Source: Streptomonospora alba (lineage in GTDB: Bacteria; Actinomycetota; Actinomycetes; Streptosporangiales; Streptosporangiaceae). From it: DNA of 64,000 nt. The notes below the pieces were generated by a model. It worked only from the letters and a program-made list of their open reading frames with translations. It searched no databases and was not told the origin of the DNA. Location: assembly GCF_000826685.1 (NCBI RefSeq), contig NZ_JROO01000006.1, forward strand, positions 1-64,000. Direction: 5' to 3'. A program made the position numbers and the translations under genes. Each line of letters opens with the position of its first letter. The stretch's first letter is position 1. This document shows, one piece after another, positions 22,471-45,291 of this stretch.

Positions 22471-23052
22471 TCACTCCGCGGGCCGCACCACCGGGCGGTG
22501 GACCACCTCGTCGATGACGGTGAGCGTCTGGGTCGAGGTGACGCCCGGCAGCGCCTGCAGCCGGGTGAGGATCAGATCGCGCAGCTGATCGGTGTCGGCC
22601 ACGCGCACCAGGAGCACGATGTCGGCCGAGCCCACCACGTACCAGCAGTATTCGACCTCGGGGTAGGAGGAGAGCACCTCGCGGTTGGCCCGCCAGTCGG
22701 GCTGGCTTCCCGAGATCAGCACCAGCGCCGTGACGCCCAGGCCCATCTTGGCGTGGTCGGCCACCACCGAATAGCCGCGGATGACGCCGTCGTCGGTGAG
22801 CCGCTTGATGCGGTTGTAGGCGGTCGCGCGCGACACGTTGGCCATGCTCGCGATCTCGGTGATGCCGGTGCGGGCGTCGTCGGCGAGGGCACCGATGATG
22901 ATCTCGTCGGTGGCGTCGGGCAGCCGCCCTCCGCGCCGTCGGGAGCGCTCGCCGTCCGAGCCCGCCGAGGAGGGCCGCAGGGGCCCCGTGCGTTCGGATT
23001 CCGCGGCGTTGTGGGCACGCCCGCTCTCCTGCCACTGCTGGCCGTCGGCCAT
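22471..23052 (-). CDS. Lrp/AsnC-family transcriptional regulator
   Basis: A 193-residue DNA-binding regulator. After a disordered, basic/acidic N-terminal extension of about 45 residues (unusual; most Lrp proteins are about 150-165 residues), the HTH runs DATDEIIIGALADDARTGI...NVSRATAYNRIKRL and the RAM ligand-binding domain includes YPEVEYCWYVVGSADIVLLV and LPGVTSTQT. The ATG at 23052 has AGGAG 6 nt upstream; a TTG two codons earlier is less likely. Its neighbourhood next to an E1 alpha/beta operon resembles BkdR-type arrangements, where Lrp proteins sense branched-chain amino or keto acids and control the oxidative complex; this link is inference. Confidence 0.88.
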   Translation of the reverse strand: MADGQQWQESGRAHNAAESERTGPLRPSSAGSDGERSRRRGGRLPDATDEIIIGALADDARTGITEIASMANVSRATAYNRIKRLTDDGVIRGYSVVADHAKMGLGVTALVLISGSQPDWRANREVLSSYPEVEYCWYVVGSADIVLLVRVADTDQLRDLILTRLQALPGVTSTQTLTVIDEVVHRPVVRPAE

Positions 23053-23252
23053 TCCCAACTCCTGGGGTCTCGCCTCGAGCGACGGCCGGGCGGGCGACCA
23101 TCGGCATGCGGTCGTTTCCGGGCAATTATCGAGACCGCGGGTGCGGTTTGGCCACCCGGGCCGCGGATTCGGTACTCGGCCGCCGAAGGCGGCGCGCTTA
23201 CCATGGTGGCAGGACGCGCGGTGTACGCGTGCTCTGACCGCTAGGAGGCGCC

Positions 23253-23612
23253 ATGCCCATCTCGCCCGAGGTCCGCGAGCGAGCTCGGGGCTTCCTGCCG
23301 GCCGGAGCCCGCATCCGCTACATCTTCCCCGCGTCGTGGAACGAATCGAGCTTCTTCGTGGTCGCGGTGACCGACGCGACGGTCACCGTACTGGTCAACC
23401 GGCTCTGGAGCCGTACGCGGCCCAAGCGCATCTGGCGCGTCTTCCCCCGCAACGTGCGGATCGGCCCCGTCGACACCCACCTCATCCCCACCTTCCACCT
23501 GGGCGGCAGCACTTTCGAGGTCGACGAGGAGTACGTCTCGGTGATCAACGCCTGCGACGCCGAACTGGAGGGCGCGGCTTCGCTCCCGCCCGACCCGCTG
23601 CCCGACCTGTAG
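23253..23612 (+). CDS. Small conserved protein, possible PH-like fold
   Basis: A 119-residue protein of no assigned function. No signal peptide or membrane span is seen. Alternating hydrophobic strands (ARIRYIFPAS, FFVVAVTDATVTVLVN, KRIWRVFPRNVRIGPVD, STFEVDEEYVSVINAC) suggest a small beta-barrel resembling bacterial PH-type domains, where an l-x-x-G-E/A start and an F-x-V-T-D strand recur. ATG 23253 follows AGGAGG with good spacing, so translation is credible. It lies between the Lrp gene (divergent) and the dehydrogenase operon (same direction, 235 nt gap). Confidence 0.65.
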   Translation: MPISPEVRERARGFLPAGARIRYIFPASWNESSFFVVAVTDATVTVLVNRLWSRTRPKRIWRVFPRNVRIGPVDTHLIPTFHLGGSTFEVDEEYVSVINACDAELEGAASLPPDPLPDL

Positions 23613-23847: not shown

Positions 23848-24879
23848 ATGCTCACCCGTGAGGAGGCCCCCCGGTTGGACGGCGACCCCGCGCTGCCGGC
23901 CGAGTCGGCGCGCCGTCTGTACCGGACGATGCTCACCGCGCGGCTGCTGGACACCGAGGCCGTGGCCCTGCAGCGCCAGGGCGTCTTTCCCGCCTACGTC
24001 TCGCTGCGCGGCCAGGAGGCCGCCCAGGTGGGCAGCGCGGCCGCCATGGACGCCCGCCGCGACTTCGCCTTCCCCACCTACCGCGAGATGGCCGTCGCGC
24101 TGGCCCTGGGCGTGGACATGGCGGGCTACATGGCCAGCCACCGCGCACTGTGGCACGGCGGCCTCTACGACCCCATGGCTGCACGCTTCGCTCCCGTCAA
24201 CGCCGTGGTCGGCGGCCCCGTACCGCACGCCGTGGGATGGGCGCTGGGCGAGAAGCTGGCCGGGCGCAGCGGCTGCGCGGTGTCCTACTTCGGCGACGGC
24301 GCCAGTTCCGAGGGCGACGTGCACGAGGCGATGAACCTCGCCGGCGTCATGGGCGCACCGGTGGTGTTCGTGTGCCAGAACAATCAATGGGCCTTGTCGG
24401 TGCCCAACGAGCGCCAGATCGCGGGCGGATCGGTCGCCGCGCGCGCAGCCGGGTACGGCATGCCCGGCGTCGCCGTCGACGGAGACGACGTCGCCGCCGT
24501 CTACACCGCCGTGCGCGAAGCGCTGGAGCGCGCCCGCTCCGGCGACGGTCCCAGCCTGGTCGAAGCGCTGACCTACCGGGCAGCACCGCACTCCACTTCC
24601 GACGACACCTCCCGCTACCGCGACCCGGACGAGGAGCGCGCCTGGGCCGAACGCGATCCCCTGCCCCGTGCGCGCGCCGCGCTGGAGGCGGCCGGGCACG
24701 CCGACGCCGCGTTCTTCGAGCAGGCCGAGGCCGAGTGCCGCGCCGAGGCCGAGCGCATCCGCGACACGGTCAGCGCCGCCCCCGAGCCGCCGGGTTCGGA
24801 CCTGTTCGCCCACGTCTACCGCGAACCCACCGAGGAGCTGGCCCGCCAGCGCCGCGTCTGGCAGGAGGAGGTCGCATGA
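23848..24879 (+). CDS. 2-oxoacid dehydrogenase E1 component, alpha subunit
   Basis: A 343-residue thiamine-diphosphate enzyme subunit that decarboxylates a 2-oxoacid and passes the acyl group to lipoyl-E2. Visible are ARLLDTEAVALQRQG, YVSLRGQEAAQVGSA (the branched-chain/pyruvate branch pattern), and the ThDP-Mg motif GDGASSEGDVHEAMN...QNNQWALS, plus the phospho-loop region HSTSDDTSRYR. ATG 23848 follows AGGAAGG. The stop overlaps the beta-subunit start (ATGA), so both subunits are coupled. Sequence pattern favours BCKDH/PDH over acetoin dehydrogenase E1, but substrate cannot be fixed. Confidence 0.92.
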   Translation: MLTREEAPRLDGDPALPAESARRLYRTMLTARLLDTEAVALQRQGVFPAYVSLRGQEAAQVGSAAAMDARRDFAFPTYREMAVALALGVDMAGYMASHRALWHGGLYDPMAARFAPVNAVVGGPVPHAVGWALGEKLAGRSGCAVSYFGDGASSEGDVHEAMNLAGVMGAPVVFVCQNNQWALSVPNERQIAGGSVAARAAGYGMPGVAVDGDDVAAVYTAVREALERARSGDGPSLVEALTYRAAPHSTSDDTSRYRDPDEERAWAERDPLPRARAALEAAGHADAAFFEQAEAECRAEAERIRDTVSAAPEPPGSDLFAHVYREPTEELARQRRVWQEEVA

Positions 24880-25901
24880 GCCCGACCGCGACGGACACGC
24901 CCGGTGCCGCCTCGGCGCCCGCTGTTCCGGCCACGATGCGCGAGGCGCTGAACCGGGCGCTGGACGAAGCGCTGGCCGAGGACCCGGCGACCCTGGTCTT
25001 CGGCGAGGACGTCGGCCGGCTCGGCGGCGTCTTCCGCGTGACCGAGGGCCTGCAGCGGCGCCACGGCGAGCACCGCGTCTTCGACACCCCGCTGGCCGAG
25101 GCCGCGATCGCGGGGATGTCCGTGGGACTGGCGATGAACGGCTGGCGCCCCGTGCCCGAGCTGCAGTTCGACGGCTTCGCCTATCCCGCCATGGACCAGA
25201 TCGTCAACCAGATCGCGCGGATGAACTACCGCTCGCGCGGCGCCGCCCCCATGCCGGTCACCGTGCGGATCCCCAGCTTCGGGGGCATCCAGGCGCCCGA
25301 ACACCACGGCGAGAGCCTGGAGGCGGTCTTCGCCCACGTGCCCGGCCTGAAGGTCGCCGCGCCCTCCGACGCCCCCGACGCCTACCGCCTGCTGCTGCAG
25401 TCGGTGCGCTGTGACGACCCAGTGGTGTTCCTGGAGCCCAAGGCGCGCTACTGGGACCGCAGCCCCTCCCCCGCCGGCGCGGGCCCGGTCGAGGACGCCG
25501 CGGTGGGCACCAGCCGCGTGGTACGCCCCGGCCGCCACGCCACACTGGTGGCCTGGGGCGCGATGGTTCACCGCTGCCTGCAGGCGGCCGAGGCCGCCGC
25601 CGAGGACGGTGTGGAGCTGGAGGTGGTGGACCTGCGCTGGCTCAAACCGATCGACGCCGCGGGGCTGGCGGAATCGGTGGGCCGCACCCGGCGCGCGGTG
25701 GTGGTGCACGAGGCACCGCTGACAGCGGGGCTGGGCGGCGAGGTGAGCGCGCTGATCACCGAAGGGGCGTTCTCGCGGCTGGCCGCGCCGGTGCAGCGGG
25801 TCGCCGGCTTCGACGTGGTCTACCCGGCGGGTCCGCTGGAGCCGCAGTACCTGCCCACGGTCGACCGCATCCTGTTCGCGGTGCAGCGGACCTTCGAATA
25901 G
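24876..25901 (+). CDS. 2-oxoacid dehydrogenase E1 component, beta subunit
   Basis: A 341-residue partner of the alpha subunit. It carries LVFGEDVGRLGGVFRVTEGL (the ThDP-contact Glu in F-G-E-D-V-G), FDTPLAEAAIAGMSVGLA, ELQFDGFAYPAMDQIVNQ, the potassium-site-like RIPSFGGIQAPEHHGES, EPKARYW, and a transketolase C-terminal domain with VDLRWLKPIDAAGLAES and VVVHEAPLTAGLGGEV. The family usually has 325-340 residues. ATG 24876 overlaps the alpha stop; a GGAGGAGG lies just inside the upstream gene. It is 14 nt before the lipoyl-domain gene. Confidence 0.93.
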   Translation: MSPTATDTPGAASAPAVPATMREALNRALDEALAEDPATLVFGEDVGRLGGVFRVTEGLQRRHGEHRVFDTPLAEAAIAGMSVGLAMNGWRPVPELQFDGFAYPAMDQIVNQIARMNYRSRGAAPMPVTVRIPSFGGIQAPEHHGESLEAVFAHVPGLKVAAPSDAPDAYRLLLQSVRCDDPVVFLEPKARYWDRSPSPAGAGPVEDAAVGTSRVVRPGRHATLVAWGAMVHRCLQAAEAAAEDGVELEVVDLRWLKPIDAAGLAESVGRTRRAVVVHEAPLTAGLGGEVSALITEGAFSRLAAPVQRVAGFDVVYPAGPLEPQYLPTVDRILFAVQRTFE

Positions 25902-25915
25902 GGGGAATCACGGCG

Positions 25916-26251
25916 ATGGCGACGAACGAGACGACGTTCCACCTTCCCGACCTGGGCGAGGGCCTGGTCGAGGCGACCGTGCTGGAGTGGCTCGTGCGCC
26001 CGGGCGAACGCGTCGAGCGCAACGGTCCGCTGGTCGAGGTCGAGACGACCAAATCGGCGGCGGAGATCCCCTCGCCGCATGCCGGCGTGGTCGCGCGACT
26101 GCACGCCGAGGAGGGAGAGGCGGTGGCCGTCGGGGCGCCGCTGGTCACCTTCGAGGTCGAGGAGGAAGCCGCGGGGATCGTGGGCACGGTCCCCGCGGAA
26201 GAGGCCCCGAAGCGCCGCCGCGTGCGGCTGACCCCGCCCGAAGACGAGTGA
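25916..26251 (+). CDS. Stand-alone lipoyl-domain protein (E2 fragment without catalytic domain)
   Basis: A 111-residue protein consisting of one biotinyl/lipoyl domain (about 6-84) and a short charged tail. The lipoyl-lysine lies in VETTKSAAEIPSP, with the typical opening FHLPDLGEGLVEATVLEW. There is no peripheral-subunit-binding domain and no CAT acyltransferase domain (no H-x-x-x-D-G), so it is not a full E2. It follows the E1 beta gene by 14 nt and precedes an alpha/beta hydrolase. In PRK14875-type acetoin dehydrogenase E2 proteins (AcoC) a lipoyl domain is fused to an alpha/beta hydrolase; here the same two parts appear as separate genes. No frameshift or stop suggests decay. Confidence 0.88.
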   Translation: MATNETTFHLPDLGEGLVEATVLEWLVRPGERVERNGPLVEVETTKSAAEIPSPHAGVVARLHAEEGEAVAVGAPLVTFEVEEEAAGIVGTVPAEEAPKRRRVRLTPPEDE

Positions 26252-26339
26252 TCCCGTTGCCGTCACGACCGAGCCGAGTGCGCCGGGCGCCGGGCGCACG
26301 CGGCGCCGGCCGCCCGGTCCGACCCCGATGGGAGCGCCC

Positions 26340-27086
26340 ATGACCCGACACACGCTGCAGGCCGAGGTGCCGCTGCGCTACGCCCCTCCCGCACCGGACG
26401 CCGCGGGCGTGCCGGTGCTGCTGGTGCACGGGTTCGGTTCGGATTACGAGCTGAACTGGGAGCGCACCGGCTGGACGCGGGCGCTCGCCGACCTGCCGGT
26501 CTTCGGCTGCGACCTGCGCGGGCACGGAGGCAGCGGCAAGCCGCACGATCCGGCGGCCTACACCCCCGGCGCCTTCGTCGGCGACCTGGTGGCGCTGCTC
26601 GACGCGCTGGACATCGAGTGCGCCGACGTCGTGGGGTACTCGCTGGGCGCGCGGCTGGCCTGGGAGCTGGCCGTGCAGCGGCCGCAGCGGGTGCGCCGCG
26701 CGGTGCTGGCCGGGTTCGGGCCCCGCGACGCGTTCGCCGGCACCGACCTGGACGACCTGGAGGCCGACGGCTCTCCGTTCGGGCAGGTCTATCGGACCGC
26801 CGCCGCGCTGCCCGGGGGCGATCCCGAGGCGCTGGCGGCGTGCGCGCGCGGGCAGGCCGCCCATCCGTTCTCGGTCGAGCCGGCGCCCGCGGGGATCCCG
26901 ACGCTGCTGCTGGCCGGCGAGCGCGACGAGCTCGCCGAGGGCATGGAGGACCTCGCCCAAGCCGTGGGCGCGACGGCGCTGCGGGCGCCGGGGCGCGACC
27001 ACGCTACGGCCGTCGCGGCGCGGCGCCTCAAGAATGCCGCCGCGGATTTCCTCGCCGCCGAAGCGGGTGCGCCTTCCCGGTTGTAA
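26340..27086 (+). CDS. Alpha/beta hydrolase at the end of the E1-lipoyl operon
   Basis: A 248-residue alpha/beta-hydrolase-fold protein. The oxyanion region is VLLVHGFGSD, the nucleophile elbow GYSLGAR (Ser), the acid in LLAGERDELAEG (Asp) and the base in GRDHATAV (His), so the catalytic triad appears complete. No signal peptide, so cytoplasmic. ATG 26340 is preferred over 26328 because GGGAG lies 5 nt upstream. It is 88 nt after the lipoyl gene, same direction. It may release the acyl group from the lipoyl domain or substitute for the acyltransferase part of E2 as in AcoC fusions; a plain esterase role is also possible. Confidence 0.85.
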   Translation: MTRHTLQAEVPLRYAPPAPDAAGVPVLLVHGFGSDYELNWERTGWTRALADLPVFGCDLRGHGGSGKPHDPAAYTPGAFVGDLVALLDALDIECADVVGYSLGARLAWELAVQRPQRVRRAVLAGFGPRDAFAGTDLDDLEADGSPFGQVYRTAAALPGGDPEALAACARGQAAHPFSVEPAPAGIPTLLLAGERDELAEGMEDLAQAVGATALRAPGRDHATAVAARRLKNAAADFLAAEAGAPSRL

Positions 27087-27369: not shown

Positions 27370-28440
27370 GTGAACAAGCGAGCCGCCAAGCTCGCCGCCG
27401 CCACAGCGGCAGGCGTGCTGGCCCTGGCCTTGACGGCCTGTGACAATCCCGAAGGCGGTGGCGCCGAGGGCGACGGCGGAGGCGGAGGCGACGACGAGAT
27501 CCGCGTCGGCCTCGCCTACGACGTCGGCGGACGGGGCGACAAGTCGTTCAACGACTCGGCCTATCGGGGCCTTCAGCAGGTCCAGGAGGAGCTGGGTATC
27601 AGCTCCGAGAACGTCCAGGACTTCGAGCCCAGCGAGGGCGAGTCGGACGTCGACAAGGAAGAACGTCTCAAGAACATGGCCGACCAGGGCTTCGACGTGG
27701 TCATCGGGGTGGGCTTCGCCTACACCCAGCCGATGATCAACGTGGCCGGCGAGGAGGCCTACTCCGACGTCGACTTCGCCATCGTCGACTCCGAGATCAC
27801 CGATCTGGAGAACGTCACCAGCCTGGTCTTCACCGAGGAGGAGGCCTCCTACCTGGTCGGCGCGGCGGCCGCGCTGAAGACCGAGGAGGACCACATCGGC
27901 TTCGTCGGCGGTGTCGAGACCCCGCTGATCCACAAGTTCGAGGCCGGGTACGTGGCCGGGGCGGAGAAGATCAACCCCGACGTCGAGATCGAGACCGCCT
28001 ACCTCACCCAGCCGCCGGACATGAGCGGCTTCTCCGACCCTGCGACGGGCCGCAGCACCGCCCAGGGCCAGCTGGACAAGGGCGCCGACGTCATTTACCA
28101 CGCGGCGGGCGCCTCGGGCAACGGCGTGCTGGAGGCCGTGGCCGGCGCCGAGAAGATGTTCATCGGCGTCGACAGCGACCAGTACAAGACCGCGCCGGAG
28201 GACCAGAAGCAGTACGTCGTCACCTCGGCGGTCAAGCGTGTGGACACCGCGGTGTTCGAGTACGTGAAGTCGGTGCAGGACGGCGAGGCGCAGTCGGGCA
28301 TTCAGCGCTTCGACCTCGAAAGCGGCGGCGTCGGCTACGCCAAGTCCAACGAGGAGGCGATCTCCGACATCGAGGACCGCCTCGACGAGCTCAAGCAGCA
28401 GATCATCGACGGCGAGATCGAGGTCCCGAGCGAGCCCTGA
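27370..28440 (+). CDS. BMP-family nucleoside-binding lipoprotein
   Basis: A 356-residue lipoprotein that captures nucleosides outside the membrane for the ABC importer encoded next. Signal peptide with lipobox L-T-A-C (Cys25), then a Gly/Asp-rich linker and a type-I periplasmic-binding fold of the PnrA/Med/BMP family: GLAYDVGGRGDKSFNDSAY, VVIGVGFAYTQPM, DFAIVDSEI, HIGFVGGVETPLIHKFEAGYVAGA, YHAAGASGNGVLEA and GVDSDQYKTAPE. The start is GTG 27370 after a GGGGAG site. A strong hairpin separates it from the ATPase gene, which is common where the binding protein is needed in excess. Confidence 0.93.
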   Translation: MNKRAAKLAAATAAGVLALALTACDNPEGGGAEGDGGGGGDDEIRVGLAYDVGGRGDKSFNDSAYRGLQQVQEELGISSENVQDFEPSEGESDVDKEERLKNMADQGFDVVIGVGFAYTQPMINVAGEEAYSDVDFAIVDSEITDLENVTSLVFTEEEASYLVGAAAALKTEEDHIGFVGGVETPLIHKFEAGYVAGAEKINPDVEIETAYLTQPPDMSGFSDPATGRSTAQGQLDKGADVIYHAAGASGNGVLEAVAGAEKMFIGVDSDQYKTAPEDQKQYVVTSAVKRVDTAVFEYVKSVQDGEAQSGIQRFDLESGGVGYAKSNEEAISDIEDRLDELKQQIIDGEIEVPSEP

Positions 28441-28500
28441 GGCTCATAGGCCCTAAGGTGGTCCCCGCGTTGTCGGGTCCGCCCGACCGCAGAGCGTCCG

Positions 28501-28536
28501 TCACCGGGGCCCGGGAGAGCGCCCGGGCCCCGGTGA
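28501..28536. terminator. Intra-operon hairpin after the binding-protein gene
   Basis: A perfect 15-bp stem (28501-28515 with 28522-28536; left arm begins TCACCGGGGCC) and a 6-nt loop lie 60 nt after the lipoprotein stop. It may partially terminate transcription or protect the upstream mRNA, raising lipoprotein over ATPase/permease levels. Confidence 0.6.
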
Positions 28537-28628
28537 CGCGGTCCGCCCTCCCCCAGCTCCGCCGCCGGCGGCCGCGCCTTCGCGCGCAACGGCCGTCGGC
28601 GGCCTGATTTACGCCAACTAGGAGTCGG

Positions 28629-30203
28629 ATGAGCAGCGCACCGTCCGGCGGCGGGGAGGCACCTCCCGCCGTCGAGCTGCGCGGGATAACCAAGAGGTTC
28701 CCGGGGGTCGTGGCCAACCACGACATCGACATCTCCGTGGACGCCGGGACGGTCCACGCCATCGTGGGTGAGAACGGCGCCGGCAAGTCCACTCTGATGA
28801 AGACCCTCTACGGCATGCACCGGCCGGACGAGGGCACGATCGCCGTCAAAGGCGGAGTCGTACGGCTCGGTTCGCCCTCCGACGCCATCAAGCACGGCAT
28901 CGGCATGGTGCACCAGCACTTCATGCTCGCCGACAACCTGACCGTGCTGGAGAACGTGGTGCTGGGGGCCGAGCGCCGCGGGGGCATCGGCCACGCCGCG
29001 CGTGCGCGCATCGCGGCCCTGTCCGACCAGTACGGGCTGGGCGTGGAGCCCGACCGGCTGATGGAGGAGCTGGGCGTGGGCCAGCGCCAGCGCGTGGAGA
29101 TCCTCAAGGTGCTCTACCGCGGCGCCGACATCGTCATCCTGGACGAGCCCACCGCGGTCCTGGTGCCCCAGGAGGTCGACGAGCTGTTCGACAACCTGCG
29201 CGAGCTCAAGCGCGAGGGCCTGACCGTCATCTTCATCTCCCACAAGCTCGACGAGGTGCTCTCGGTCGCCGACACCATCACCGTCATCCGTCGCGGCACC
29301 ACGGTGGCCACCGTCGACCCGAGCCGCACCAGCGCCCGCGAACTGGCCACCCTCATGGTCGGCGGCGAGCTGCCCGTGCCCGAGCTGCGCGAGTCCACGG
29401 TCACCGATCGCCCGATGCTGGAGATCGGCGGACTGCGGGTGAGCGATCCCGGCGGCCGGCGGGTCGTCGACGACGTGTCCCTGGATATCCGCGAGGGCGA
29501 GATCGTGGGCATCGCGGGCGTCGAGGGCAACGGCCAGTCGGAGCTGATCGAGGCCGTCATGGGCATGCGGTCGGTCGAGGCCGGAAGCGTGCGGCTGAAC
29601 GGCGGCGACATCACCGGCTGGGGCACGCTGGCGATCCGCGAGGCGGGGGTCGGCTACATCCCCGAGGACCGGACCCGCCACGGCATGCTGCTGGAATCCC
29701 CGCTGTGGGAGAACCGCATCCTCGGCCACCAGGGCGAGCGGCCCAACTCCCGCGGCATCTGGATCGACTGCGCCGGCGCGCGCGCCGACACCGAGCGGAT
29801 CGTGGCCGACTACGACGTGCGCACCCCCGGCATCGAAGTCATCGCCGAGGCGCTCAGCGGCGGCAACCAGCAGAAGCTGATCGTGGGGCGCGAAATGAGC
29901 GGGCGGCCCAAGGTACTGGTGGCGGCCCACCCCACCCGAGGTGTGGACGTGGGCGCCCAGGCGGCCATCTGGGACCATCTGCGGCGGGCGCGAAGCGACG
30001 GGCTCGCGGTGCTGCTGGTCTCGGCGGACCTGGACGAGCTGATCGGCATGTCCGACACGCTGCACGTCATCCTGCGCGGTCGGCTGGTGGCGCGGGCCGA
30101 CCCGATGACGGTGACCCCCGAGGAACTGGGCGCCGCGATGACCGGCGCCGGCCTGGACGAGGGAGCCGGCAGCGGCGGCAGTGAAGGCGAGGACGGCGAA
30201 TGA
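28629..30203 (+). CDS. Nucleoside ABC transporter ATPase, two nucleotide-binding domains
   Basis: A 524-residue fused ATPase with two ABC modules. Module 1 (about 14-245) has Walker A GENGAGKST, signature LGVGQRQRVEIL and Walker B ADIVILDEPTAVL. Module 2 (260-500) has a degenerate Walker A (GVEGNGQSEL, no Lys), an intact signature LSGGNQQKL and Walker B VLVAAHPTRGVD with His for the catalytic Glu. The one-active, one-degenerate pattern is normal for the sugar/nucleoside CUT2-type importers. ATG 28629 follows AGGAG. Its stop overlaps the first permease start by 4 nt. Confidence 0.94.
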   Translation: MSSAPSGGGEAPPAVELRGITKRFPGVVANHDIDISVDAGTVHAIVGENGAGKSTLMKTLYGMHRPDEGTIAVKGGVVRLGSPSDAIKHGIGMVHQHFMLADNLTVLENVVLGAERRGGIGHAARARIAALSDQYGLGVEPDRLMEELGVGQRQRVEILKVLYRGADIVILDEPTAVLVPQEVDELFDNLRELKREGLTVIFISHKLDEVLSVADTITVIRRGTTVATVDPSRTSARELATLMVGGELPVPELRESTVTDRPMLEIGGLRVSDPGGRRVVDDVSLDIREGEIVGIAGVEGNGQSELIEAVMGMRSVEAGSVRLNGGDITGWGTLAIREAGVGYIPEDRTRHGMLLESPLWENRILGHQGERPNSRGIWIDCAGARADTERIVADYDVRTPGIEVIAEALSGGNQQKLIVGREMSGRPKVLVAAHPTRGVDVGAQAAIWDHLRRARSDGLAVLLVSADLDELIGMSDTLHVILRGRLVARADPMTVTPEELGAAMTGAGLDEGAGSGGSEGEDGE

Positions 30204-31636
30204 GAATCCCCCTTCCCCCGCCGGCGGCGGCCGGTGCGGCCGCCGTGCTCGGCGCGGGTGTCACCGCCGCCGCTGATTTGGGCCTGCTCGCGCCCGCGGC
30301 GGCGGCTCTGGGTGTGGCGGCGGCCTTCGCCCTGGTGGTGCCGACGACCCGGCCCACGACCGACGACGCCGAGACGCGGATGCACCGGCTGCTGGTGGCG
30401 CCGATCGCGCTGGTGCTGTCGGTGGTCGCGGGCCTGCTGGCAGGCGGGATCCTCGACTGGTGGCTGATCGAGCCGGTGGCCTACCCGCTGGGCGCGCTCA
30501 TCGGCTCGGTGGCGGCTTTCTGGCTGTACCGGCGGCTGTCGACCACGCTGGCGCTGTCCTTCGGCGCCGTGGTCGCGGCCGGCGTGCTGGCGCTGGCGGT
30601 CACGGCGCTGGTGCTGCAGATCAGCGGCGTGGCGCCCTTCCACGCGTTCAGCAGGATGCTGGAGTTCGGGCTGCAGCCCGACAGCCTGGTCATCATGGTC
30701 AACTCCGGCACCACCTTCTACCTGTCCGCGGTGGCGGTGGCGATCGGCTTCAAGATGAAGCTGTTCAACATCGGCGTGGACGGCCAGTACCGGCTGGCGG
30801 CGCTGCTGGCCGCAGCCGTGGGCGGCGCCTGGGTGATGCCGCCGGTCGTCCACCAGATCGTCATCGTCATGGTGGCGGTGGCCGTCGGCGGCTTCTGGGC
30901 GGGCATCGCGGGCTATCTGAAGGTGGCCCGCGGCGTCTCCGAAGTGATCTCCACGATCATGCTGAACTCGGTGGCCACGGGGATCACCGCCTACCTGCTC
31001 AACACCGACCGGCTGGCGGTGCAGATCAGCACCAACAACATCGGTACCCCCGAGATCCCGGCGTCGGGGCAGGTGCCGGGCATCCCCGCCGGGTTCATGG
31101 GCGCCGACCGCGACATCTTCGGGCTGGTCTTCCTGGCGGCCGCGGTGGGTGTGGGCTACTGGCTCATGCTCAACCGCACCCGGTTCGGCTTCGACCTGCG
31201 CGCCACCGGCCAGTCGCCCACGGCGGCACGGGCCAGCGGCATCGACATCAAGCGCATGGTGCTGCTTTCGATGGTCATCTCCGGGATGGTCGCCGGCCTG
31301 GTGGGAATGCCCCAGCTGCTCGGCCAGTCGCATTACTACGCGCTGGACTTCCCCACCGGCCTCGGATTCACCGGCATCGCGATCGCGCTGCTGGGGCGCA
31401 ACCACCCGGTAGGGATCGCGTTCGCCGCGCTGTTCTGGGCGTTTTTGGACCAGTCCAGCCAGATCCTGGACTTCGAGGGCATCCCCAAGGAGATCGCCGT
31501 GGTCACCCAGGCCACCATCGTGCTGACCGTGGTCGTGGTGTACGAGGTCGTGCACCGCTGGGGTCTGCGCTACCAGCAGCAGCAGGTCGGCCGGGAGCTG
31601 GCCCGCGGCGAGCGTGAGGAGGCGGCGGCGTCATGA
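30200..31636 (+). CDS. Nucleoside ABC transporter permease 1
   Basis: A 478-residue BPD_transp_2-type membrane permease. Family motifs: FYLSAVAVAIGFKMKLFNIGVDGQY, ARGVSEVISTIMLNSVATG, RATGQSPTAARASGIDIKRM and LGFTGIAIALLGRNHPVGI. It is longer than the usual 350-400 residues because of an extra hydrophobic N-terminal part (about 1-125, four possible spans). ATG 30200 overlaps the ATPase stop (ATGA) and its own stop overlaps permease 2 in the same way, so the three are translated as a coupled set. Confidence 0.92.
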   Translation: MRIPLPPPAAAGAAAVLGAGVTAAADLGLLAPAAAALGVAAAFALVVPTTRPTTDDAETRMHRLLVAPIALVLSVVAGLLAGGILDWWLIEPVAYPLGALIGSVAAFWLYRRLSTTLALSFGAVVAAGVLALAVTALVLQISGVAPFHAFSRMLEFGLQPDSLVIMVNSGTTFYLSAVAVAIGFKMKLFNIGVDGQYRLAALLAAAVGGAWVMPPVVHQIVIVMVAVAVGGFWAGIAGYLKVARGVSEVISTIMLNSVATGITAYLLNTDRLAVQISTNNIGTPEIPASGQVPGIPAGFMGADRDIFGLVFLAAAVGVGYWLMLNRTRFGFDLRATGQSPTAARASGIDIKRMVLLSMVISGMVAGLVGMPQLLGQSHYYALDFPTGLGFTGIAIALLGRNHPVGIAFAALFWAFLDQSSQILDFEGIPKEIAVVTQATIVLTVVVVYEVVHRWGLRYQQQQVGRELARGEREEAAAS

Positions 31637-33108
31637 GCCAGGATCTGACGGTCACCGACGCGCCCCCGCCCCCGACCGGGGCCCGGCGCGGCACCCGGTC
31701 GCGGTGGCGCTTCGTCAGCATCGCCCTCGCGGCGTTCGTGGCGCTGGCGGGGGTGCGGGCCATCACCGGCCAGCCGATGCTGACCAGCCCCGGCACCATC
31801 CAGGCGACGCTCGCGTTCGCCGTGCCGATCGGGCTGGCGGGCCTGGGCGGTGTGTGGGCCGAACGCGCCGGGATCATCAACATCGGCCTCGAAGGCATGA
31901 TGGTGCTGGGCACCTGGTTCGGCGCCTACTTCGCCTTCACCTTCGACAACCCGTGGGCGGGGCTGGTCGCCGGGGTCCTGGGCGGCATGGCCGGCGGGCT
32001 CATCCACGCGGTGGCCACGGTCACCTTCGGCGTGGACCACATCGTCTCGGGCGTGGCGATCAACATCCTTGCGGTAGGCGCGATGCGCTACCTGTCGCTG
32101 CTGTTCTTCGTCGACACTCCCGGCGGCGGCGCCGCCCAGTCGCCGCAGCTGCCGGAGTTCCCGCAGGTCGGGCTGCCGTTCGTGGCCCAGATGCTGGCGC
32201 CGGTGCGCGATTCGGGCGTGTTCCTGCTCGCCGACACCGCCTCCCTGATCACCGGGCTGACCACGGGCATGTCGGTGATGACGCTGCTGGCGATCCTGCT
32301 TGCGCCGCTGACGTTCGCGGTGCTGTGGCACACCCCGTTCGGGCTCCGGCTGCGCTCGTGCGGGGAGAACCCCGACGCCGCCGAGTCGCTGGGCGTGCCG
32401 GTTTACGCCTACAAGTTCACCGCGGTGGTGTTCTCCGGCGGGTTCGCCGGGATGGGCGGGGTGTTCCTCGCGATGGTGGCCTCGTCGGTGTACCAGGAGG
32501 GGCAGACCGGCGGACGCGGCTACATCGGCCTGGCCGCGATGATCTTCGGCAACTGGCGGCCGGGCGGGCTGGCGATGGGTGCCGGACTGTTCGGGTTCAC
32601 CGACGCGCTGCAGGTGCGCGGCGGCGGTGGCGCGGTCCACGCGCTGCTGCTGCTGATCGCGCTGGCGCTGCTGGTGGGTGCTGTGGCCAGGCTGGCGATG
32701 GCGGCGCGGCGCTTGCGCGGCACCGCCGACTTCGCCAGCGTGGCGACCGTGGGCGGCGTGTTCGCCGCGGGCACCGCGATCGCGGCCGTCGGCGGCGCGG
32801 TGGCCGTCACGGGCGGCGCCGTGTGGTGGTGGGCCGTCGCGGCGCTGGGTGTGGCCGTCGGCGCGGTCGCGGCGGTGCGGGCGGTGCGCGCACGGCCCGC
32901 GGCGGCCGGGAGCCTGCCGGTGCCGGCGCTCGCCGCGGCGGCCGCGGGCGTCGTCGTGCTGGTGTGGTACTTCGCCACCGACTCTCTTCCGGGGCAGCTG
33001 GTCACCTACAGCCCGCATATCGCGACCCTGCTGGTGCTGGCGCTGGCCTCCCAGCGCCTGCGCCCGCCGGCGAACGTGGGCCGCCAGTGGCGCAAGGGGC
33101 GCGCGTGA
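31633..33108 (+). CDS. Nucleoside ABC transporter permease 2
   Basis: A 491-residue partner permease. Conserved blocks: AFAVPIGLAGLGGVWAERAG, INIGLEGMMVLGTWFGAY, DHIVSGVAINILAVGAMRYL, RSCGENPDAAESLGVPVY, RGYIGLAAMIFGNW. The C-terminal 130 residues, after RLAMAARRLRG, form three or four extra hydrophobic segments not needed in the core fold. It heterodimerises with permease 1 in this family. ATG 31633 overlaps the previous stop. A 260-nt gap follows before cdd. Confidence 0.92.
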   Translation: MSQDLTVTDAPPPPTGARRGTRSRWRFVSIALAAFVALAGVRAITGQPMLTSPGTIQATLAFAVPIGLAGLGGVWAERAGIINIGLEGMMVLGTWFGAYFAFTFDNPWAGLVAGVLGGMAGGLIHAVATVTFGVDHIVSGVAINILAVGAMRYLSLLFFVDTPGGGAAQSPQLPEFPQVGLPFVAQMLAPVRDSGVFLLADTASLITGLTTGMSVMTLLAILLAPLTFAVLWHTPFGLRLRSCGENPDAAESLGVPVYAYKFTAVVFSGGFAGMGGVFLAMVASSVYQEGQTGGRGYIGLAAMIFGNWRPGGLAMGAGLFGFTDALQVRGGGGAVHALLLLIALALLVGAVARLAMAARRLRGTADFASVATVGGVFAAGTAIAAVGGAVAVTGGAVWWWAVAALGVAVGAVAAVRAVRARPAAAGSLPVPALAAAAAGVVVLVWYFATDSLPGQLVTYSPHIATLLVLALASQRLRPPANVGRQWRKGRA

Positions 33109-33794: not shown

Positions 33795-34040
33795 GCCGGC
33801 GCGGCTCTGACCACGCGGCTGGGGCGGCGCACCCCCGGCCGCGGACGCCCGGCGGGCACCCGGCCCACGCCTCTTGACCGAGAGCCTGGACCGCCGTACC
33901 CGCGCAGGGCGATGATGGCCCCACTGCTGCGGGGCTCCGGTTTCCGTCATCGCCGCGGCGGGCCCGGGGGAGCTTTCGGCGCCGCGGGGCCGCGGACCGG
34001 CGGCGCACGCAGACCACGACCACTGCCCACGGGAGGACCC

Positions 34041-35312
34041 ATGGAGGCCATCGACGTCATCATCGCCAAGCGTGACGGCGGCGAGCTCACCGACGAGCAG
34101 ATCGGATGGGTGGTCGACGCCTACACCCGCGGCGCGGTGGCCGAGGAGCAGATGGCGGCGCTGAGCATGGCCATCGTGTGGCGGGGCATGACGCGCGCCG
34201 AGACCAGCGCGTGGACCCGGGCGATGCTGGATTCCGGCGAGCGGCTCGACTTCACCGGGCTCGACCGGCCCACCACCGACAAGCACTCCACCGGCGGTGT
34301 CGGCGACAAGATCACCCTGCCGCTGACGCCGGCGGTCGCCGCCTGCGGCGCGGCGGTGCCGCAGCTGTCGGGGCGCGGGCTCGGCCACACCGGCGGCACC
34401 CTGGACAAGCTGGAGTCGATCCCGGGCTGGCGCGCCGACCTCACGCCGGAGGGGATGCGCCGCCAACTCGGCGACGTGGGGGGAGTCGTCTGCGCGGCGG
34501 GGTCGGGCCTGGCGCCCGCCGACCGCAAGCTCTACGCGCTGCGCGACGTGACCGGAACCGTGGAGTCGATCCCGCTGATCGCCGCGTCGATCATGTCCAA
34601 GAAGCTCGCCGAGGGCACAGCGTCGCTGGTGCTGGACGTCAAGGTCGGTTCGGGCGCGTTCATGAAGGACATCGCCTCGGCGCGGGAGCTCGCCGAGACG
34701 ATGGTGGCCATCGGCACCGACCACGGCGTGCGCACCCGCGCGCTGCTCACCGCGATGGACACCCCCCTGGGCCGCCGCGTGGGCAACGCCCTGGAGGTCG
34801 CCGAGGCCGTGGAGGTGCTCTCCGGGGGCGGGCCCTCCGACGTCGTGGAACTGACCGTGGAGTTGGGGCGGGAGATGCTGCGGGCCGCCGGCCTGCAGGA
34901 CGCGCGCGACCCCGCCGAGGCGCTGCGCGACGGCTCGGCCATGGACTCGTGGCGGCGGATGATCGCCGCCCAGGGCGGCGATCCCGACGCCCCTCCGCCT
35001 GTCGCCGCCGAACAGCGCGACATCCTCGCCCCGGCGACCGGGACGCTGACACGTCTGGACGCCTACGCGGTGGGCGTGGCCGCGTGGCGACTGGGCGCGG
35101 GCCGGGCACGCAAGGAGGACCCGGTCTCTGCGGGCGCCGGGATCGAACTGCACGCCGCGCCGGGCGAGGAGATCCGCGCCGGCCGCCCGCTGTTCACCCT
35201 GCACACCGACGACCCCGCCCGCCTCGAACACGCAGCCGAGGTCCTCGCCCACGCCTTCGCGATCGACGGCCCCGAGGACCGGCTGCCCCTGGTGATCGAC
35301 CGGATCGGGTGA
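34041..35312 (+). CDS. deoA: Thymidine/pyrimidine-nucleoside phosphorylase
   Basis: A 423-residue class-II nucleoside phosphorylase splitting thymidine or (deoxy)uridine with phosphate to base plus (deoxy)ribose-1-phosphate. It shows DKHSTGGVGDKITLPL, LSGRGLGHTGGTLDKLE, SIMSKKLAEG and DVKVGSGAFMKD, plus the C-terminal PYNP domain with GIELHAAPGEEIRAG. Start ATG 34041 follows GGGAGGA; an upstream in-frame extension has no family content. Converges on the phosphosugar mutase gene. Confidence 0.95.
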   Translation: MEAIDVIIAKRDGGELTDEQIGWVVDAYTRGAVAEEQMAALSMAIVWRGMTRAETSAWTRAMLDSGERLDFTGLDRPTTDKHSTGGVGDKITLPLTPAVAACGAAVPQLSGRGLGHTGGTLDKLESIPGWRADLTPEGMRRQLGDVGGVVCAAGSGLAPADRKLYALRDVTGTVESIPLIAASIMSKKLAEGTASLVLDVKVGSGAFMKDIASARELAETMVAIGTDHGVRTRALLTAMDTPLGRRVGNALEVAEAVEVLSGGGPSDVVELTVELGREMLRAAGLQDARDPAEALRDGSAMDSWRRMIAAQGGDPDAPPPVAAEQRDILAPATGTLTRLDAYAVGVAAWRLGAGRARKEDPVSAGAGIELHAAPGEEIRAGRPLFTLHTDDPARLEHAAEVLAHAFAIDGPEDRLPLVIDRIG

Positions 35313-35386
35313 CGCCGCCGCCTCCGGGGAGCCGCGGTTCCCTCCCGGGTGTGTCCGACGGGTCCGTCCGGAGGCCTCTGCGGGCC

Positions 35387-37078
35387 TTATCCCGCCTCGG
35401 TGCGCTCCGGCTCCTCCGGGAACAGGGCCCGCACGGCACGGTCCAGGGCGTCGAGGCGGGCCTCGGCGTCGGCGCGGACGTCGGCGACGTCCGCGGCGTC
35501 GGGGTCCACCGGCAGGACGACCTCCAGGTAGGCCTTCAGCTTGGGTTCGGTGCCCGACGGACGCAGGGTGAGGCGGCCCTGCACCGGGCCTCCCAGGCGG
35601 TAGCGCAGCGCATCGGTGGCGGGCAGGCCGCCGAGGCCGGTGGAGAAGTCCTCCACCGCTTCGACCGCCAGCGCCCCCAACGCGTCCGGGGCCCGCACAC
35701 GCAGGCGGTGCATGGTGTCGGTGAGCAGGGCCACCTCGCCGACCCGGACCGACACCTGGCGGGTGGCGTGCAGCCCGTAGCGGCGCGCCTGGTCGTCGAG
35801 CAGGTCGAGCAGGGTGCGTCCGCCGCGTTTGGCCTCTGCTGCCAGCGCCGCCACGGCCAGCGCCGCGCCGATGCCGTCCTTGTCGGCCACCGGGCGGCCG
35901 CCGTCGCCGGCCAGGCAGTAGCCCAGGGCCTCCTCGTAGGCGAAGACGCACCGCTCGCCGGGACCGGCGGCGCGCGCCAGCCACTTGAAACCGGTCAGGG
36001 TCTCGGTGCAGCGCACCCCGTGCGCTGCGGCGATCTTGGGCAGCAGCCCGGCGGAGACGATGGTGGTCGCCACCGTCCTGTCGTCGCCCGAGGTGCGGCC
36101 CAGCACGTACTCGGCCAGCAGCCCGCCCACCTGGTCGCCGGTCAGCAGCCCGTACCCCGGCACGGCCACCGCCAACCGGTCGGCGTCGGGATCGTTGGCC
36201 AGGACGACGTCGGTGCCCTCGTCGCGCGCGGCGGCCAGGGCCAGGTCCATGGCGCCGGGTTCCTCGGGGTTGGGGAACCGCACCGTGGGGAAGTCGGGAT
36301 CGGGCCTCCGCTGCTCACCCACCACGCGCGGCGGCGGGAAGCCCTCCCAGTCGAAGGCGGTCAGCAGGGTCTGCGCGCCGACGCCGTGCAGCGGGGTGTA
36401 GGTGGTGGTGACGTCCCTGTCGCGGCCGAGCGGAAGGGCGCACACCGCGGAGAGGTAGCGTTCCACGGCCTCTTCCCCCAGCAAGCGCCGATCCCGCGAC
36501 AGGCGAAGCGTGTCGACAGGGCCCGCCGCCTCGATGGCCGCGGAGATCTCGGTGTCGGCCGGCGGGATGATCTGGCTGCCGGCGTGCTCGCCGGTACCGC
36601 CGACGTAGACCTTGTAGCCGTTGTCCTCGGGCGGGTTGTGGCTGGCGGTGACCATGATCCCGGCGTCGGCGCCGAGGTCGCGGACGGTGAATGCCAGCAC
36701 CGGCGTGGGCAGCGGGCGCGGCAGCAGCAGCACGGTGCAGCCCGCGCCGGCCAGCACGGCGGCGGAGTCGTGGGCGAAGTCGGCGGAGCGGTGGCGTGCG
36801 TCGTAGCCGATCACCACGGTGGCGCCGGGCCCGGCCCACTGCGCGACGCCCGCTGCGGCGCGCATGACCGTCACCCGGTTCATCCGGTTGGGACCGGCGC
36901 CGAGCCTGCCGCGCAGCCCGGCGGTGCCGAACTCCAGCCGGGCGCCGAACCGCTCGGCCAGCCCGTCCTCGTCACCGGCCTCCAGCAGCGCGGCCAGCTC
37001 CTCGCGGGTCACCGGATCGGGGTCCTGGGCCAGCCAGGCCCGCGCCGCCGCGCGGTGGGAGTCGTCGACCTCGCCCAT
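35387..37078 (-). CDS. Phosphohexomutase-family enzyme, possible phosphopentomutase
   Basis: A 563-residue alpha-D-phosphohexomutase. Active-site serine loop GIMVTASHNPPEDNGYKVY, metal loop VVLANDPDADRLAVA, sugar loop CVFAYEEALGYCL, phosphate loop LRPSGTEPKLKAYLE; GTAGLRGRLGAGPNRMN near 50 is typical of the PGM/PMM group that includes PgmB-type and phosphopentomutase-like members. Position beside punA, deoA and deoC suggests it moves phosphate between C1 and C5 of (deoxy)ribose, filling the DeoB step missing here; phosphoglucomutase activity is the alternative. ATG 37078, 49 nt after punA. Confidence 0.88.
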   Translation of the reverse strand: MGEVDDSHRAAARAWLAQDPDPVTREELAALLEAGDEDGLAERFGARLEFGTAGLRGRLGAGPNRMNRVTVMRAAAGVAQWAGPGATVVIGYDARHRSADFAHDSAAVLAGAGCTVLLLPRPLPTPVLAFTVRDLGADAGIMVTASHNPPEDNGYKVYVGGTGEHAGSQIIPPADTEISAAIEAAGPVDTLRLSRDRRLLGEEAVERYLSAVCALPLGRDRDVTTTYTPLHGVGAQTLLTAFDWEGFPPPRVVGEQRRPDPDFPTVRFPNPEEPGAMDLALAAARDEGTDVVLANDPDADRLAVAVPGYGLLTGDQVGGLLAEYVLGRTSGDDRTVATTIVSAGLLPKIAAAHGVRCTETLTGFKWLARAAGPGERCVFAYEEALGYCLAGDGGRPVADKDGIGAALAVAALAAEAKRGGRTLLDLLDDQARRYGLHATRQVSVRVGEVALLTDTMHRLRVRAPDALGALAVEAVEDFSTGLGGLPATDALRYRLGGPVQGRLTLRPSGTEPKLKAYLEVVLPVDPDAADVADVRADAEARLDALDRAVRALFPEEPERTEAG

Positions 37079-44086: not shown

Positions 44087-45274
44087 ATGGCACCGGACCG
44101 GCTCGCCGACTCCTCGCCCAGGACCGACACAGGCCCGCCCACCGAGACCGCGGCGCCGACCACCCGGCCGCGGCTGTACTACCTGGACCACCTGCGCGTC
44201 GTGCTTACGGCGCTGGTGGTGCTGCACCACTCGGCGATCATCTACGGCAACATCCCGCTCTTCTACTACACCGAACCCGCCGACGACCCCAGCGGCGCCC
44301 TCCTGGACGTCTTCCTCGTCCTCAACCAGGCGTTCTTCATGGGCTTCTTCTTCTTGATCTCCGGGTTCTTCACACCCGGCTCCCTCGACCGCAGGGGCGC
44401 CCGCGGCTTCCTCCGCGGCAGGCTGATGCGGCTGGGAGTGCCGCTGCTGCTCTTCCTCGTGCTTCTGCGGCCCGTGGTCTATCTGGGGATCTACCTGGCC
44501 GATCCCGACGCGCCGCCCTACTGGCTCCACTACGTGCAGACGTGGGAGCCGGGCCCCATGTGGTTCGTCGAGACGCTCCTGGTGTTCGCCCTGGTATACG
44601 CGCTGATCAGGCGGTTCCGGCCGCCGAGGGAGGGCGCGCCTGCGGCGGCCGTCCGCCCGGACAGGCCGGCTCGCGTGCCCGGACCGTTGGCCGTCGCCGG
44701 TTTCGTCGCCGTCCTCGCGGCGCTCACCTACCTGTGGCGCATCGCGGTGCCCATCGGCGCAACCTGGCCGATCGTCGGGCTGCCCACCCCTGCTTACATG
44801 CCGCAGTACGTGCTGCTGTTCGCCGCGGGCGCGCTGGCTTTCCGCAGGGGCTGGCTCGACGCCGTCCCGCGCTGGGCGGGCTGGGGCGGCGCGGGCACCG
44901 CCCTGCTCATGGCGCCGGTCATCATGCTCGCGATCAGCGCGCCGCGTGAGGCGGCCCTCCAGCCGGGGACGTGGCAGTCGCTGCTGCTGGCGGCCGCGGA
45001 GTGCGCCTTCGCCGTCGGCGCCGTGCTTACGCTGCTGGCCGTGTTCCAGCGGCGGTTCAACCGGCGCTCACGCGCGTGGACGTTCCTCTCCGAGCACGCC
45101 TACGCGGTCTACTTCCTGCACATCCTGGTGGTGGTCGGCCTGGGTCACGCCTTCTCCTGGTGGGAGGCCCCGGCGATCGCCAAGTTCGCTGCTGTGGGCG
45201 CGCTCGCGCTGCCGCTGTGCTGGGGCGCGGCCTATGCGCTGCGCTCGCTGCCCCGAGCCGACCGCGTGTTCTAG
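44087..45274 (+). CDS. Acyltransferase-3 family integral membrane protein
   Basis: A 395-residue polytopic protein of the acyltransferase-3 (OafA/WecH-like) family, which moves acyl groups onto extracytoplasmic sugars or other envelope molecules. It shows the N-terminal RLYYLDHLRVVLTALVVLHHSA block (with the paired His of the family), then FFFLISGFFTPGSLDRRG and RLMRLGVPLLL, and about ten hydrophobic spans. The C-terminal span set ends with EHAYAVYFLHILVVVGLGHAF. No extracellular SGNH domain is fused. ATG 44087 follows GGAGAACC. Substrate unknown. Confidence 0.86.
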   Translation: MAPDRLADSSPRTDTGPPTETAAPTTRPRLYYLDHLRVVLTALVVLHHSAIIYGNIPLFYYTEPADDPSGALLDVFLVLNQAFFMGFFFLISGFFTPGSLDRRGARGFLRGRLMRLGVPLLLFLVLLRPVVYLGIYLADPDAPPYWLHYVQTWEPGPMWFVETLLVFALVYALIRRFRPPREGAPAAAVRPDRPARVPGPLAVAGFVAVLAALTYLWRIAVPIGATWPIVGLPTPAYMPQYVLLFAAGALAFRRGWLDAVPRWAGWGGAGTALLMAPVIMLAISAPREAALQPGTWQSLLLAAAECAFAVGAVLTLLAVFQRRFNRRSRAWTFLSEHAYAVYFLHILVVVGLGHAFSWWEAPAIAKFAAVGALALPLCWGAAYALRSLPRADRVF

Positions 45275-45291
45275 CCGCTCGGCACGGCGCG

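Follow-up and report, generated by a model that had tools for sequence, protein, structure and literature searches.

2-Oxoacid dehydrogenases are, in the textbook picture, complexes built on an E2 acyltransferase core, which release their product as an acyl-CoA. Here we describe, in a 64,000-nucleotide stretch of the Streptomonospora alba genome (contig NZ_JROO01000006.1, positions 1 to 64,000; hereafter the window), a four-gene operon that reads as a 2-oxoacid dehydrogenase without such a core. Judged from its sequence and that of its relatives, its E1 component would take a bulky 2-oxoacid and its hydrolase would off-load the resulting arylacetyl-lipoyl as a free acid, a reading that we hold tentatively, with slightly more doubt than belief. 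The operon lies on the plus strand at 23848-27086, coordinates that were confirmed, and comprises genes for E1 alpha, E1 beta, a lipoyl protein and an alpha/beta hydrolase. These four components are kept adjacent across genomes, they lack an E2 catalytic (CAT) domain and a subunit-binding domain, and they carry a complete hydrolase triad, a lipoyl lysine and a small residue in the E1 alpha pocket column. The operon and the two genes upstream of it are laid out as follows:

22471..23058, minus strand: Lrp/AsnC-family regulator, divergent from the operon (Pfam AsnC_trans_reg and HTH)
23253..23612, plus strand: 119-residue protein of unknown family, between the regulator and E1 alpha
23848..24879, plus strand: E1 alpha, 343 aa, thiamine-diphosphate 2-oxoacid dehydrogenase subunit with the small pocket residue A49 (Pfam E1_dh)
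24876..25901, plus strand: E1 beta, 341 aa (Pfam Transket_pyr and Transketolase_C)
25916..26251, plus strand: free lipoyl carrier, 111 aa, lipoyl Lys46 (Pfam Biotin_lipoyl, residues 7-78)
26328..27086, plus strand: alpha/beta hydrolase, 252 aa, triad S105-D200-H225, proposed acyl-lipoyl thioesterase (Pfam Abhydrolase_1 and an overlapping Hydrolase_4)

Both the coordinates and the Pfam matches agree with an earlier note on this DNA, which had described E1 alpha, E1 beta, a 111-residue lipoyl-only protein and a separate hydrolase in a row. The start of E1 beta overlaps the stop of E1 alpha by 4 bases. E1 alpha gave two weaker thiamine-enzyme Pfam matches besides E1_dh and scored 388.7 bits against TIGR03181, below the cut-off of 411; the thiamine-diphosphate fold of E1 alpha/beta is backed by Pfam and by relatives of solved structure. 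The same note had reported that the locus lacks an E2 CAT domain, a subunit-binding domain and a gene for dihydrolipoyl dehydrogenase (E3), and Pfam bears this out: a profile search of the organism's own genome found no match to PF00198 (E2 CAT) on the window's contig (C68), and E3 is absent among the four operon genes, no genome-wide search for it having been made. PF00198 matched seven times on six other contigs (C18, C36, C44, C49, C60 and C78). Three further E1 alpha genes (on C49, C44 and C36) each lie near such a match, and C60 holds an additional E2-like gene. The only lipoyl-less PF00198 place that resembles a stand-alone CAT is on C18, where, by eye, an FkbH-like gene, a lipoyl-less E2-CAT-like gene and an alpha/beta hydrolase gene stand in a row (L007/L068, genome G000, ~102500-106000), resembling a cluster of the tetronate biosynthetic type; lying as it does between the FkbH-like gene and another hydrolase, this CAT was rejected as a partner of the operon.

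The arrangement is conserved well beyond this strain. Among 120 sampled genomes of the family, 24 hold both the hydrolase (E-value 4e-66 or better) and the lipoyl protein (E 1.4e-36 or better), adjacent by coordinates in all 24, and the order minus-strand Lrp, E1 alpha, E1 beta, lipoyl protein, hydrolase was kept in all 20 family loci that were read, with E1 alpha identities of 70-92%. The lipoyl protein and the hydrolase are separate genes in the window and in each of these 20 loci, and the four-gene set is intact in the 4 of them in which a downstream BMP-type transporter was not found. In a class-wide sample of 394 genomes (lipoyl protein at E 3e-32 or better, hydrolase at E 1e-30 or better), 53 had a hydrolase match and 22 a free lipoyl protein, the hydrolase gene adjoining in all 22. 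The lipoyl protein thus implies the hydrolase in these samples, and not the reverse; that it might be a strain-specific truncation, as the earlier note had allowed, is excluded by these two sets of genomes. A scan of named genomes, finally, returned 80 loci, 43 of the Nocardiopsaceae type and 37 from Micrococcales. E1 alpha, E1 beta and the lipoyl protein accompany the hydrolase in 42 of the 43 (the hydrolase of L135 lies at a contig end), and all four genes are present in 5 of the 37. One locus titled Glycomyces fuscus (L126) groups with Nocardiopsis alborubida in the hydrolase tree (100/93), and its genome is possibly mislabelled.

Pfam detects neither a subunit-binding nor a CAT domain in the 111-residue lipoyl protein, giving a weak HlyD_3 match besides Biotin_lipoyl. 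K46 and 12 positions of the C-terminal tail are unvarying in 21 of 21 family sequences, and the tail carries a conserved motif, GIVGTVP...RRVRLxPP, of which a Micrococcaceae lipoyl protein (L274) keeps GIVGTVP and RRVRL and not the final PP. Block means of the predicted local distance difference test (pLDDT) were 82-95 over the domain and 46-59 over the tail, and since the tail is predicted with such low confidence we propose that it is probably disordered; it may serve as a docking motif. By eye, the tail resembles the linker of classical E2 proteins (VLVGYG...RRRPRLTPP in L269), as would be expected of an E2 cut before its subunit-binding domain, an origin that we considered and dropped, as shuffle tests do not generally bear out the likeness. 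The score of the window's tail against 12 linkers was reached by 4 of 300 shuffles for L269 and 18 of 300 for L270, and by at least 38 of 300 for the other 10, one more linker being too short; the best result for a consensus tail was 19 of 300, again with L269. Homology of the tail to the classical linker is therefore suggestive only.

The hydrolase triad, which had been called complete from the window alone, is S105-D200-H225, unvarying in 20 of 20 family hydrolases and in wider alignments of 50 and 49 sequences, the latter including Micrococcales. Twelve hydrolase rows with internal stops were left out (L062 from alignment A3, and 11 others); these stops are confined to the final 4% of the matches, a part aligned past the natural end, and do not mark broken genes. 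The best NCBIfam match of the hydrolase is AcoC/PRK14875, with 69 bits where the cut-off is 307, and PcaDC follows at 65 bits; the lipoyl protein scored 56 bits against the AcoC/PRK14875 model, two other E2 models scoring higher by bits. These scores do not support a clear kinship with AcoC, with which the earlier note had compared the two proteins. Against the esterase model PRK10673 (YbfF), which we take to be kin of ABHD11, the hydrolase scored 32.6 bits. Its AlphaFold2 model has a mean pLDDT of 95.5, and among the 50 Foldseek matches listed, its solved relatives are generic alpha/beta hydrolases with query TM-scores of 0.63-0.78, including the C-C bond hydrolases HsaD, DxnB2 and CumD among many other kinds. 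The fold comparison does not tell a thioesterase from other activities.

A pointer to the substrate comes from E1 alpha, in which A49 of the window aligns with a phenylalanine of the Thermus thermophilus E1 and of the Bacillus-type pyruvate dehydrogenase (PDH) E1 (1w85). In 69 of 69 cluster E1 alphas this position is Ala (66) or Gly (3), as against Val in all 14 of the near classical ones; among the three paralogues in the organism's own genome, one has Leu, one Val and one Gly. A more spacious pocket is in keeping with an aromatic side chain, without proving one.

A second pointer comes from the Micrococcales, where three Sinomonas loci (L162, L180 and L186) show, as a single block, genes for Lrp, an amino-acid permease, E1 alpha, E1 beta, the lipoyl protein and the hydrolase, continued by HpaG-like, GntR, HpaE, HpaD, HpaH and HpaI-like genes. 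An Arthrobacter locus (L179) has HpaG-like, GntR and HpaE genes up to its end. In L186, HpaE, HpaD and HpaH exceed their NCBIfam cut-offs, as the HpaG-like protein does for a general fumarylacetoacetate-hydrolase model alone; the permease exceeds none. The HpaI-like protein of L155, which served as the query, does not reach the HpaI cut-off. Of 42 Micrococcales hydrolase loci (the 37 named ones and 5 others, three of these from one genome), 16 contain one or more hpa genes. In L274 (genome G301), a stretch of 19 kb takes in the set, an Lrp gene, a HisC-type aminotransferase gene above its cut-off and a gene for a TrpX-like transporter protein below its cut-off. Outside the family, 18 of the 32 genomes with the hydrolase have HpaD (E 1e-80 or better), as do 6 others, for two of which the match is below the curated cut-off. 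Fisher's test of HpaD against the hydrolase gave p ~1e-15 under assumed totals, with the genomes treated as unrelated and every genome assumed to belong to both samples (394 and 364 genomes). Within the family, PaaA was found in 24 of 24 cluster genomes, the window's own among them, compared with 38 of 96 others.

Taking these observations together, we propose that E1 alpha-beta would decarboxylate a bulky 2-oxoacid, most likely an arylpyruvate derived from phenylalanine, tyrosine or tryptophan, and reductively acylate the lipoyl group borne by the free 111-residue carrier; that the serine nucleophile of the hydrolase would then free the arylacetyl group as an acid; and that an E3 encoded elsewhere, presumably shared with other complexes, would reoxidise the carrier. 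The aromatic nature of the substrate is suggested by the Micrococcaceae neighbourhood, the pocket residue and the co-occurrence counts, and hydrolysis is preferred to transfer to CoA from what is known of the hpa pathway, since hpa enzymes act on free acids and since ABHD11, discussed below, offers a precedent. The more specific proposal, that the free lipoyl protein ferries arylacetyl from E1 to a serine thioesterase, yielding free arylacetate and NADH rather than an acyl-CoA, and so fills the 4-hydroxyphenylpyruvate step in some Gram-positives, is possible, with doubt clearly prevailing. What the earlier note had suggested, a distinct E2-CAT-less complex whose hydrolase could off-load the acyl group, holds up as a conserved arrangement; its suggestion of an E1 resembling that of branched-chain ketoacid dehydrogenase (BCKDH) or PDH does not extend to the substrate, given the pocket residue and the Micrococcaceae context.

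A number of observations weigh against this proposal. Regarding the pocket, we presume that the phenylalanine of T. thermophilus E1 forms part of the substrate side-chain pocket, and the glycine at this column among the organism's own paralogues belongs to the E1 alpha on C36. Regarding the hydrolase, 30 of the 35 Micrococcales genomes with a relative of it (37 loci) lack the free lipoyl protein (scored as present in 5 genomes, at E below 1e-40), so it can exist without that protein and may hydrolyse other thioesters or do something else; the earlier note had asked whether the hydrolase belongs to other contexts, and in these genomes in part it does. The window's hydrolase is, moreover, ~39-45% identical to those of Micrococcales. 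Regarding the pathway, no hpa genes were seen in the loci read as L163 (which ends ~3 kb past the hydrolase) and L274, and HpaD was not seen in 14 of the 32 hydrolase genomes outside the family, some of which may fall outside the smaller sample. Within the family, HpaD was found in just two of the cluster genomes included in the HpaD sample, G006 and G008, and because the window's genome has none above the cut-off, homology is all that links it to the hpa evidence. The sink in this organism is thus less clear, PaaA being present; if Nocardiopsaceae use paa as the sink, hydrolysis and transfer to CoA would fit equally well. The HpaD and PaaA counts, furthermore, take no account of shared ancestry. 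Lastly, the E1-lipoyl set is absent from most Arthrobacter-type genomes examined and so would not be a general answer there.

One alternative is a split AcoC-like E2 in which the hydrolase-fold protein moves the acyl group from lipoyl to CoA, for example as phenylacetyl-CoA into paa. PaaA in every family cluster genome speaks for it, as does AcoC/PRK14875 being the top NCBIfam match of the hydrolase and a match of the lipoyl protein too; yet 69 bits is far from 307 and barely over PcaDC, and the Sinomonas neighbours are hpa genes, whose enzymes take free acids, so that we regard this alternative as unlikely. A search with NF011457 (E 1e-60) returned nothing in 148 class genomes, and as 14 controls were equally silent, absence is not shown by it. 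Of the 60 E1 beta matches listed, 8 were viewed in their plasmid context; no gene there is labelled as a hydrolase-fused E2, E2 acyltransferase genes are annotated, and two of the contexts have a separate lipoyl-containing gene. It is rather unlikely, in turn, that the hydrolase merely shares the operon and acts on another compound of aromatic catabolism, such as a ring-cleavage product or an ester. Its relatives do lie beside the permease or hpa genes without E1 and lipoyl genes in many Micrococcales loci, and C-C bond hydrolases appear in the Foldseek list, but Nocardiopsaceae retain it with E1 and the lipoyl protein though only two sampled cluster genomes have HpaD, every free lipoyl protein in the samples was accompanied by it, and an operon deprived of it would have no off-loading partner.

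The carrier could also serve a housekeeping E2/E3 core in trans, the hydrolase being, like ABHD11, a repair enzyme that clears the lipoyl group of acyl groups that are stuck or incorrect. The genome's three other E1 alpha genes near PF00198 matches and the E2-like gene on C60 could supply such a core, and ABHD11 as reported (PMC12643935) provides a precedent. The carrier, however, has no subunit-binding domain with which to dock, and, by argument only, a repair enzyme would not be expected to accompany a carrier as strictly as in the 22 of 22 genomes; we consider this improbable. Still less probable, and markedly so, is a relic or unusual branched-chain 2-oxoacid dehydrogenase with a truncated E2 and a CAT protein elsewhere. 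The Lrp regulator and the E1 type presumably resemble those of bkd operons, and an Lrp-like gene also stands beside the organism's own C44 E1/E2 genes, but strong conservation across genera and the change in the pocket argue against a relic of this kind.

Turning to its origin, the E2-less form looks derived. In a sample of 296 genomes across the phylum, other classes contributed 21 E1 alpha matches (E 1e-112 or better), and the form looks derived because a full-length E2 (lipoyl and CAT) follows E1 beta in 11 of the 14 of these loci that were fetched, the remaining three (L261, L264 and L272) ending too soon, at a contig end. In an E1 alpha tree of 40 rows, 6 Micrococcaceae cluster sequences group together (100/99), and a single clade of all 23 cluster sequences is neither rejected (p-AU 0.449) nor shown. 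In the hydrolase tree, by contrast, the five named Micrococcaceae clusters are split between two positions among the other hydrolases of Micrococcaceae. In 24 loci the permease and hydrolase genes lie on one strand, and E1 alpha, E1 beta and lipoyl genes stand exactly between them in 5 and not in 19; in 18 of these 19 a gap of 52-273 bases precedes the hydrolase match, and L160 has one of 891 bases, in which nothing matches the query proteins at better than E 0.2. Judging by this pattern, the hydrolase appears to have remained in place as the three-gene block was lost or gained in one piece.

The operon's immediate neighbours are less constant. The 119-residue protein (23253-23612) has no Pfam match at E 0.001, and a counterpart is present in 13 of 20 family loci. 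Downstream, in the region of 27370-33108 and 33912-37078, 16 of 20 family loci have a BMP-type ABC transporter gene, and two more genes recur in 18 and 15 of 20; from their first residues, we take these two to have a nucleoside-salvage look. Two ARAGORN calls, a tRNA-Cys at 26647-26735 within the hydrolase gene and a tRNA of unknown type at 45214-45290, are probably chance matches in GC-rich DNA.

Compared with known systems, the operon shares E1 alpha, E1 beta and a lipoyl domain with PDH and BCKDH (the E1 alpha2beta2 type) and differs from them in having no subunit-binding domain, CAT or E3 gene, in having a hydrolase instead, and in its smaller pocket-column residue. AcoC of acetoin dehydrogenase (PRK14875/NF011457), which we take to be a lipoyl domain fused to an alpha/beta hydrolase, likewise puts these two parts in place of CAT beside E1 alpha/beta; here, each half of that fused protein is a separate gene, and both score far below the 307-bit cut-off. 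Mitochondrial ABHD11, reported as a glutaryl-lipoyl thioesterase (PMC12643935), is an alpha/beta hydrolase that acts on acyl-lipoyl, the very activity proposed here, although it reportedly strips glutaryl adducts to keep a complete complex working and, unlike the operon's hydrolase, is not known to be tied to a free carrier. Plasmid operons of Aminobacter (L289, 5002-5873) and Phaeobacter (L290, 4974-6260 and 7717-8595) resemble ours in that a lipoyl-containing gene is annotated apart from E2, and differ in that an E2 acyltransferase gene is annotated.

For p-hydroxyphenylpyruvate, Clostridium scatologenes has an anaerobic route to p-hydroxyphenylacetate, encoded by HpdDEFG, HpdJ and HpdK, which shares with our proposal the passage through an activated acyl group; it employs a ferredoxin oxidoreductase, a phosphate transferase and a kinase, and its abstract names no lipoyl carrier or hydrolase (PMC13285125). 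Plant constructs with a 4-hydroxyphenylpyruvate oxidase from A. globiformis are mentioned in PMC9338888. The sequence of that oxidase may be found in patents. Such an enzyme, to judge from its EC name, would use O2 and would differ from an E3- and NAD-linked system. The gene set itself was described in no paper found in the open-licence literature. If our proposal is true, the operon is a conserved core-less version of these complexes and shows that the half reaction between E1 and lipoyl can be redirected towards free acids, and it could supply the step of tyrosine breakdown from 4-hydroxyphenylpyruvate to 4-hydroxyphenylacetate, the gene for which is reported as not located.

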